DNA of 7,703 nucleotides from the NCBI GenBank assembly GCA_020696955.1, contig JAJFBK010000026.1, forward strand, positions 1 through 7,703. The letters run 5' to 3'. Source of the stretch: Patescibacteria group bacterium. GTDB taxonomy: Bacteria; Patescibacteria; UBA1384; CAILIB01. Made by a program: the position numbers and the translations under genes. Within the stretch, counting starts at the first letter, position 1; each line of letters begins with the position of its first letter. The notes under the pieces were generated by a model that was given only the letters and a program-made list of their open reading frames with translations, did not search any database and was not told the DNA's origin. Below are positions 4,122 through 7,100 of the stretch, one piece after another.

Positions 4122-7100
4122 TAAAGGTATATGATCAATTAGTACTTCACGGCTGAAACAGTTGCCTGCCTTACACCTAAAGCCTATCAAGGTCGTTATC
4201 TACAACCGATCTAGAAACCTAATCTTGAAGCTAGCTTCCCGCTTATATGCTTTCAGCGGTTATCTAAACCCAACATAGCTACCCAGCACTGCCTTTGGTA
4301 AGACAACTGGCACACCAGAGGTTGGTCCCCCTCGGTCCTCTCGTACTAGAGGGAGTCCTTCGCAAGTTTCCACGCCCACAGAAGATTAGGACCGAACTGT
4401 CTCACGACGTTCTGAACCCAGCTCGCGTACCGCTTTAATTGGCGAACAGCCAAACCCTTGGGACCTTCTCCAGCCCCAGGATGCGACGAGCCGACATCGT
4501 ACTTGTTTCCAGGATTACGCCTGGCGCAGACTATATCTTGTTCCTGCTCATTCTTGCTGTAGGCCTTAATGAAATATCGTACAATATTTCAGCCATGGCG
4601 AATGTTTTTGTTGCAGGACTTGGCGTGTTAGCTCTTTTTTTGAAGAAGGAGCTCTGCTCTTTCGAGCAAGTCGTTACGGGGTCAAGTTGCATAAAGCAAC
4701 CGACTTCCCACGGTATTACCCTTGTTCTCACTATGAATATATACCACATTCATAGATGAAACAGTCGGGCTTCACCGTTATAAGCCAAATTTTTGGAATA
4801 GGATTACTCCTAATGCACCCCAATGTTTAAGTTAAGGTGCCAAACCGCGCCGTCGCTGTGGACGCTTGGGCGCGATCAGCCTGTTATCCCCGGGGTAGCT
4901 TTTATCCGATGATCGACGCGAATCTCACACTAACGCGTCGGTTCACTACTGCCTACTTTCGTATCTGCTCGGATCGTAGTCCTCACAGTCAAGCTGACTT
5001 ATGCAGTTGCACGTCGAGGCCAGATTTCCATCCTGGCTAAGTCAACCTTTGCACGCCTCCGTTACCATTTAGGAGGCAACCGTCCCAGTTAAACTACCCA
5101 TCAGACACTGTCCTCGGTTCATTAGCCAAGTTAGTATACGTCATGTACAAGAGAGGTATTTCACTGATGTCTCCACACCACCCGAAGGTAATGCTTCAAA
5201 GACTCCCTCTTATGCTACGCATGTACACAACATATACAATGCCAAACTATAGTAAAGCTCCACGGGGTCTTTCCGTCTTTCTGTGGGTAAACGGCATCTT
5301 TACCGCTATTGGAATTTCACCGGAGTCCTCGTTGAGACAGTGCTCAAAACCGTTATGCCATTCGTGCGGGTCGGAACTTACCCGACAAGGAATTTCGCTA
5401 CCATAGGACCGTTATAGTTACGGCCGCCATTCACCCGGGCTTCAAATCAATCCCTGAAATTATCTCAGATCTCCTCTTAACCTTCGGGCATTGGGCAGGC
5501 ATCACCCCCTATACATCCTCTTACGAGTTAGCAGGGAGCTAAGTTTTTGCTAAACAGTCGTTTGAGCTCTTTTGCTGTGGACCACCTTACGATGGTCAGT
5601 CCTTATCCCTAAGTTACGGACGTTATTTTGCCGAGTTCCTTAACGAGGATTCTTCCGATCACCTTAGTCTACTCGACTCACCCACCTGCGTCGGTTTGCG
5701 GTACGGATCAGTACTACTAATCATTGGCCCTTTTCTAGTCACCGTCGCCCCTATTTCAAACATATCCATAGCATGAAATAAGCTAAACAATGCGTCAGGC
5801 CAAGCATATAGTACCAAGTTCAGGAATATTAACCTGATGTCCATCGACTTCCCCCTTCGGGTACGCCTTAGGACCGACTAACCCAGGGACGATTAGCGTT
5901 GCCCTGGAAACCTTGGGTATGCGGTGGCCAGGTTTTTCACCTGGCAAATTCGTTACTCATGCCAACATTCTCACTTCTACGCGCTCCACGTCGGTTTCCA
6001 CCTTCGCTTCACTGCACGTAAAACGCTCCTCTACCGACAGTCACTGACGAATCAGTAACTGCCCCGCGTCTTCGGTACAATACTTAGCCCCGTTAAATTT
6101 TCGGCGCATGACTTCTTAACTAGATCAGTGAGCTGTTACGCACTCTTTAACTGATGGCTGCTTCTAAGCCAACAGACTGACTGTCTTGGAAATCACACAA
6201 CCTTTCCCACTTAGTATTGATTTGGGGACCTTAGACGGCGATCTGGGTTCTTTCCCTTTTGACTATGAAGCTTAGCCCCCACAGTCTGACTCTGTAACTC
6301 ATAGCCGAACAGAATTCGGAGTTTGGTTGGTGCTCAGAGATTGCTCCCCAAGACACCATTCAGTATCTCTACCTCTGTCGGTAGCATTACAGGCTATACC
6401 TAAATATATTTCGAGGAGAACCAGCTATCTCCCGGTTCGATTGGTATTTTACCCCTTACCACAGGTCATCCCGCAACTTTGCAACGTTGCCGAGTTCGGA
6501 CCTCCCGCTCCTGTTACGGAGCGTTCATCCTGCCCATGGCAAGCTCACCGGGTTTCGGGTCTAGTGACACGAACTACATCGCCCTATTCGGACTCGCTTT
6601 CGCTACGGCTCCGGGATAAACCCCTTAGCCTTGCCCGTGCCAGCTAACTCGTTGGCGCATTCTACAAAAGGCACGCCGTCACCCGTCCGAAGACAGGCTC
6701 CGACCTCTCAGAAGCAAACATGGTTTCAGTACTATTTCACTCCCCTCACCGGGGTGCTTTTCACCTTTCCCTCACGGTACTTGTTCACTATCGATCTTAC
6801 AATGTATTTAGCCTTAGAACGTGATCGTCCTAGATTCCCACTGGATTTCACGTGTCCAGTGGTACTCAGGTGCCGTATCAAGCAGTCCAATGTATTTCAC
6901 CTACCGGGCTCTCACCGTCTGTGGCCATCCGTTCCAAGATGTTCGATTATACAAAGGATTTTTTACTGCTCGTGATATCACCATACGGTCCTACAACCCC
7001 GCTATGAAAAATCATGCGGTTTGGGCTAGATCCGCTTTCGCTCGCCACTACTAACGGAATCTCTATTGATTTCTTTTCCTCGTGCTACTTAGATGTTTCA

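Follow-up and report, generated by a model that had tools for sequence, protein, structure and literature searches.

The group I intron that interrupts the 23S rRNA gene of the analyzed window (the whole stretch of DNA under study, 7,703 nt in length) ends in an adenosine (here named omega-A), and this end base recurs among the introns inserted at the same position of 23S rRNA, designated L2500. The terminal guanosine (omega-G) of group I introns is described as universally conserved (PMC9223047), and it takes the guanosine site in the second step of splicing. Considering the evidence set out below, the L2500 intron is believed, with a probability of roughly 0.8, to be spliced by the usual two transesterifications with omega-A replacing the terminal guanosine. 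In the first step, an exogenous guanosine positioned at the P7 G264-C311 pair would attack after U2500, while in the second step the freed 5' exon would attack before C2501, with omega-A standing in place of the terminal guanosine and being held by P9.0 and by the P1/P10 double guide. Both the splicing of the window intron and the entry of A into the G site are what we infer from comparison of sequences. Work on the Tetrahymena intron leads one to expect a slower second step where omega-A occurs and the G-binding pair has stayed the same, and a strict P9.0 may offset the weaker binding of A.

The features of the window that are required for this analysis, all of which are located on the minus strand, are as follows.

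4120-7286, minus strand: interrupted 23S rRNA gene (RF02541, 2424.9 bits, whole model 1-2925)
3878-3762, minus strand: 5S rRNA gene, downstream of the 23S gene
4500-4834, minus strand: L2500 group I intron of 335 nt (RF00028, alignment to E. coli 23S rRNA, and covariation)
4835-4840, minus strand: 5'-exon strand of P1 (GCACCU), ending in U2500 and pairing with 4815-4820 (GGGUGC)
4815-4826, minus strand: internal guide, in which the P10 strand (4821-4826) adjoins the P1 strand (4815-4820)
4799-4812, minus strand: P2 hairpin with a GUAA loop, double changes in 4 of 5 pairs
4784-4788, minus strand: 5' strand of P3, its 3' strand being 4620-4624, double changes in 2 of 5 pairs
4774-4778 and 4710-4714, minus strand: P4, 96.5% of cells paired
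4767-4769 and 4719-4721, minus strand: P5, 100% of cells paired
4707-4709 and 4679-4681, minus strand: P6 (span 4679-4709), from the pairing count
4669-4674, minus strand: 5' strand of P7, with the G264 equivalent at 4672, pairing with 4529-4532
4528-4532, minus strand: 3' strand of P7, with the C311 equivalent at 4529
4664-4667 and 4656-4659, minus strand: P7.1, double changes in 3 of 4 pairs, the outer pair forming in 1 of 23 introns only
4649-4653 and 4630-4634, minus strand: P7.2, double changes in 4 of 5 pairs
4542-4618, minus strand: P8, double changes in 4 of 6 basal pairs
4509-4524, minus strand: P9 hairpin, double changes in 4 of 5 pairs
4501-4502, minus strand: 3' strand of P9.0 (GU), pairing with 4526-4527 (GC)
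4500, minus strand: terminal intron base A (omega-A), between P9.0 and C2501

No tRNA gene was detected in the window by ARAGORN. Two ORFs on the minus strand, at 3041-3682 (213 aa) and 2653-2847 (64 aa), gave no Pfam match at E ≤0.01; a PadR-like regulator (2244-2597) lies on one side of these ORFs and the 5S gene on the other. A host tree based on 23S rRNA was generated by a quick method from 50 rows with more than 60% coverage (taken from the at least 119 loci described below, E. coli and the window), and places the window host beside the Berkelbacteria bin L086 (82% over 2353 columns, SH-aLRT 99). The window host therefore groups with Berkelbacteria, i.e. within the CPR bacteria, which agrees with the first-pass annotation in so far as CPR bacteria had been named there as carriers of introns in rRNA genes. 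In the intron tree, the window intron is placed apart from the L086 intron while the two hosts adjoin, which fits mobility of the element.

Alignment to E. coli 23S rRNA identifies 4835 as U2500 (the last base of the 5' exon) and 4499 as C2501 (the first base of the 3' exon), with the insertion located exactly between these two positions, so that the extent (4500-4834, 335 nt) and the U2500/C2501 junction given by the first-pass annotation are borne out. The covariance-model check that had been suggested at that stage returned a match of RF00028 over its whole model (4844-4508, minus strand, 44.9 bits, E 4.2e-9), which is below the Rfam gathering score of 50, and this sub-gathering match, along with covariation, points to a group I core of P3 to P8 containing the P7 G-binding pair. 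The folding energy of the intron RNA is 6.5 s.d. lower than that of 100 dinucleotide-shuffled sequences, and P1 and the majority of the nested helices are already present in its minimum-energy fold, with P2 in a shifted register.

Base pairs were then counted on hand-written P1, P2, P3, P4, P5, P6, P7, P7.1, P7.2, P8, P9, P9.0 and P10 in 23 introns of one subfamily (including the window intron), which were retained from 34 listed short T-type introns after ten omega-G rows that were divergent or odd, and a single omega-A row (L077), had been omitted. In this set 95.6% of 1378 cells pair, a percentage that is raised by the omission of the divergent rows, as compared to 85.5% in shuffled alignments and at most 40.1% when partners were slid. 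Cells with double changes amounted to 152 against 38.7 when shuffled, and pairs changed on both sides to 23 against 15.6, while further pair types were not above the shuffles (49 against 46.0, with 68 of 500 shuffles being as high). The U.G pair at the 5' splice site (U2500.G4820) is present in 23 of the 23 aligned relatives, in which P1 never varies; P7 is invariant in the same set, and P9.0 pairs in 76.1% of cells of this 23-row alignment, which includes 7 omega-G rows. P10 is formed in the window by six pairs between 4821-4826 and the 3' exon at 4494-4499 (CGAUGU). P7.1 and P7.2, which are the mark of subgroup IA introns, lie between the 5' strand of P7 and the 3' strand of P3, and both contain compensatory changes; the window intron is consequently IA-like.

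The P1-P10 fold with P7.1 and P7.2, which had initially been drawn by eye, is in this way upheld by covariation in 23 relatives, and the reading of the insert as a complete group I intron with IA-like P7.1/P7.2 is supported by comparative sequence analysis. The word "complete" stands for the whole fold and the exact site; it fails for the canonical terminal guanosine, which is missing, the terminal base being A4500, a feature overlooked in the first-pass annotation. Considering that a natural exception to omega-G is in print (as indicated by its title), A4500 diminishes the claim to "canonical" rather than the assignment to group I. An ORF of 72 aa within the intron (4531-4749) gave no Pfam match at E ≤1, and no homing-endonuclease ORF was recognised in the window intron.

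Relatives were collected by scanning genome contigs for a P7 motif that has CGAUGUCGGC 12-42 nt behind it, which yielded at least 119 loci, 112 of which look like L2500 introns on the basis of their exons. The titles of these 112, among the loci listed, refer to CPR bacteria in 75 cases, only to "bacterium" in 16 and to other organisms in 21, the latter including Actinomycetota, Chloroflexi, Planctomycetota, Elusimicrobia, Omnitrophota, Thaumarchaeota and Coxiella-type endosymbionts. For 102 of the at least 119 loci, plus the window, candidate 5' and 3' ends of an insertion at the L2500 site were obtained, the 5' ends of L014, L032, L048 and some archaeal loci among the 102 being doubtful. Sixteen loci gave no 5' exon: six are clearly not 23S, and the other ten end in A (four times) or G (six times). 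L017 turned out to be a spurious hit, and the end-base count leaves out three loci that could not be parsed (L032, L048 and L080); 35 of the 100 parsed L2500 introns among the loci listed end in A. Introns at L2500 are common and not particular to the window gene, which corrects the first-pass annotation on this point, and CPR introns near the peptidyl-transferase centre have already been published (PMC11270868). A short-pattern survey of 379 CPR genomes was too unspecific and served for examples of intron-less sites only, while a second survey (matching 33 of the 379 CPR genomes) excludes C at position -3 and for this reason cannot yield an omega-A fraction.

A number of the host assignments are recorded here as separate observations. 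Four L2500-type introns (L065, L073, L106 and L048) are located on contigs titled Thaumarchaeota; these have GGUACCU 5' exons, the 5' end of L048 being unreadable, and L065, L073 and L106 constitute, in the intron tree, a clade of omega-G introns that is marked by a star. Omega-A L2500 introns are found in three records titled Saccharibacteria (L094, L096 and L099), a group for which 64 of 66 rRNA insertions are given as short and without an intron in PMC11270868. The introns in two records of Coxiella-type endosymbionts (L009 and L118) fall beside those of CPR bacteria; the end base is G in one of them and A in the other.

The 3' end of the window intron reads ...CCUGGAAACAAGUA/CGAUGUCGG (a slash here and below indicates the splice junction). 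The sequence ACAUUG, immediately 5' of the P1 guide strand, pairs with CGAUGU of the 3' exon to generate P10, which designates C2501 as the first base of the 3' exon. An unbroken P10 run of at least 4 pairs is present in 30 of the 35 omega-A introns among the loci listed; in the other 5 listed the run is shorter than 4 pairs, one of these (L096) having masked bases there. P9.0, in which bases -2 and -3 pair with the nucleotides two and three positions downstream of C311 in P7, forms with both pairs in 35 of the 35 listed omega-A introns, the types being GC/GU (14), AC/GU (12), AU/AU (7), GU/AU (1) and UU/AA (1). When ends were shuffled among these 35 introns, P9.0 formed in a mean of 27.1 and a maximum of 32 (5000 shuffles); the mean is already this high because most ends are GUA, and the covariation is therefore provided by the minority ends. 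The distance from C311 to the splice site is 28-30 nt, and G264 is kept, in all 35 listed omega-A introns. Since P10 and P9.0 fix the end independently of each other, the A occupies exactly the position of the terminal G of relatives like L013 (...CGUG/CGAUG).

Considering that C311 was forced by the search pattern, the 379 CPR genomes were searched again without the P7 constraint. From the 30 loci fetched, 22 contain a P7-like motif, and 17 of these 22 end in A; 15 of the 17 keep the G264-C311 pair and form P9.0, 9 of the 15 being new introns. The remaining two are L142, which is the intron of L071, and L122, which has an odd P7. The L2500 insert of L122 ends in AAA/CGATGTCGGCTC, its odd P7 being GGAATAGTC, and has no P9.0.

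P9.0 forms in only 20 of the 65 omega-G introns among the loci listed. When the association between omega-A and P9.0 was assessed on 6 independent pairs, 3-5 agreed and none opposed (p 0.0625-0.25), and the link across independent pairs is suggestive only. Where P9.0 is absent from an omega-G intron (45 cases), at least 25 introns have the potential for a hairpin of 5-7 bp across the 3' splice site, in which (C)CGACA of the intron pairs with UGUCG(G) of the 3' exon and a G/CGA loop holds the junction, as in L008, L021, L042 and L081, which are omega-G introns of the C-type. This hairpin may stand in for P9.0; as an explanation of omega-A it was rejected, its clear form (5-7 bp with a four-base loop) belonging to omega-G introns that are without P9.0.

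A compensation for omega-A within the core was sought by calculating the mutual information of alignment columns with the end base, and no single column separates A from G; the most informative columns of the C-type subfamily are situated within or close to J7/9 and P9, those of the T-type subfamily in variable stems. The same chemistry might require a protein helper in A-ended introns, being either a host factor or a maturase-endonuclease supplied by another copy, an explanation which overlaps with the preferred one: no compensation is visible in the core of A-ended introns, no ORF is recognised in the window copy, and some endonucleases may act as maturases according to PMC11270868. Such a requirement is nevertheless considered unlikely, because 22 of the 35 omega-A introns among the loci listed are shorter than 600 nt and most of them would thus be without a full ORF.

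The placement of the 3' splice site before C2501 was also weighed against a normal omega-G at 4502 (CAAG/UA) as the true end, in which case the mature 23S rRNA would contain an extra UA before C2501. A G is indeed present at -3 in 26 of the 35 listed omega-A introns (those with GUA ends), but 8 of the 35 end in AUA and one in AAA, with no G at that position, and the -3 base covaries with base 314 as expected for P9.0. Furthermore, P10 points at C2501, and many intron-less CPR sites among the matches listed read CACCTCGATG, without UA, leaving this alternative end with little probability.

Splicing at omega-A, as favoured here, is presumably needed by the cells concerned, in most of which the intron appears to occupy the only 23S gene. 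In 25 genomes known to carry an L2500 intron that ends in A, such a site occurs exactly once per genome, and no uninterrupted site (searched as an exact pattern) was found in 24 of these 25. Most are draft bins, from which an uninterrupted copy may be missing, and L118, one of the 24, is titled a complete genome; the first-pass claim that splicing must precede ribosome function is supported to this extent. A single genome, G095, has an intron-containing site as well as an uninterrupted site, owing to either a second operon or contamination. That the insert is kept, or cut out without ligation so as to generate a fragmented 23S rRNA, is very improbable, even though a 23S group I intron is reported as unspliced in the title of Everett et al. 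(1999) and a terminal A could represent decay. An insert of this kind would interrupt the loop of the peptidyl-transferase centre in the sole copy detected in 24 of 25 genomes, conservation is seen in the core as well as in the two pairings of the guide, and ORF-sized introns (longer than 600 nt) make up 13 of 35 omega-A as against 28 of 65 omega-G introns among the loci listed, so that the A end is no clear sign of decay.

The outer pair of P7 (A4674-U4528 in the window) is A-U in one half (50) and G-C in the other half (50) of the 100 parsed introns among the loci listed, and A ends are associated with 26 of the former and 9 of the latter. On the best intron tree, from whose alignment the last 8 nt had been removed, 12 changes are needed to account for the end base and one for the P7 outer pair; the bootstrap of this tree has not settled, and its well-supported branches alone force fewer changes of the end base, with 6 independent A/G pairs. 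A broader proposition, which we hold to be evenly balanced, is that natural group I introns can dispense with omega-G: it would have been exchanged with A repeatedly at L2500, in two P7 subfamilies and several phyla and with G264 unchanged, as the 3' splice site would be positioned well enough by a complete P9.0 together with the double guide of P1 and P10. The 3' end would thereby represent an exchangeable module with three forms: P9.0 combined with omega-A, P9.0 combined with omega-G, and a hairpin with the 3' exon that contains omega-G.

Among introns longer than 560 nt at the loci listed, 36 of 42 contain an ORF of at least 90 aa, most with an LGDG motif near its start. The bulk of the ORF in the long relatives is located in the P6 loop, its first residues overlapping P5-P6 (as read by hand), and a 50-residue N-terminal piece of one such ORF matches LAGLIDADG_2 with E 2.6e-4, which is below the family cut-off. 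The LAGLIDADG-like gene of the long relatives makes it likely that L2500 introns spread by homing.

At other 23S sites, a crude look (in which sites are indicated by the start of the 3' exon) retrieved G at the intron end in 10 of 10 introns at 2657, 4 of 4 at 2594, 2 of 2 at 2450 and 2 of 2 at 1952, while 1932 (L1931) gave four G and two A, and 2501 gave 30 A of 91, among the loci listed. A stricter look demanded an exact 8-base 5' exon, which omits much of the C-type subfamily, and added loci of the second survey, some of which are repeats; it gave 44 A of 66 at L2500, G in 4 of 4 at 2596, and 2 A of 3 at L1931, P9.0 being formed in those that end in A. At 2657 the stricter look returned "A" without P9.0 in 2 of 2, probably due to a one-base shift of the same junction. 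The counts at other sites are small and depend on the junction chosen; the A ends at L1931 indicate that the omega-A class may not be confined to L2500.

Tsurumaki et al. (2024, PMC11270868) described group I introns of CPR 23S rRNA at sites 23IS6-14, which gather around the peptidyl-transferase centre. Their sites 23IS9-23IS11, which by the numbering of that paper must fall within 1952-2593, are said there to have no report from any other known bacteria; the L2500 site is therefore probably already known in CPR bacteria. The introns studied here resemble those in having a CPR host, a 23S location, a group I assignment by Rfam, probable mobility, and both ORF-less and LAGLIDADG-bearing forms at one site. 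The main text of PMC11270868 contains neither "guanosine" nor "splice site", and "omega" only in the title of a reference. In Coxiella burnetii, one 23S intron "lacks the canonical omegaG" (title of Raghavan et al. 2007); the introns of this species are likewise bacterial 23S group I introns, but are located at L1917 and L1951 instead of L2500, and the exception constitutes a single element whereas omega-A at L2500 is a recurrent class. Introns at L1917, L1931 and L2593 of cyanobacteria, Thermotoga and others are also 23S group I introns with LAGLIDADG genes (PMC1995217) and differ from those at L2500 in site, the word L2500 being absent from that paper. The omega-G-less intron of C. burnetii reportedly ends in A and splices slowly. 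A literature search, with subscription journals mostly outside its reach, retrieved no paper that joins L2500, nor 2500, 2449 and 2593, with a group I intron; neither did it retrieve a report of a recurrent omega-A class, most subscription journals again being outside and the Greek omega followed by G being unsearchable. A widespread omega-A class accordingly appears to be new.

What merits attention in this work is the recurrent absence of omega-G, which among the 35 parsed cases was never seen apart from an intact P9.0. For annotation, a junction rule that demands a G would shift the ends of omega-A introns by at least 2 bases. The existence of natural omega-A and omega-G homologues, some of which are close on the tree, renders the reading of the G site in the second step testable. 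About one third of the parsed L2500 introns among the loci listed are without omega-G, and the 23S gene that they interrupt is apparently the sole one in most of these hosts.
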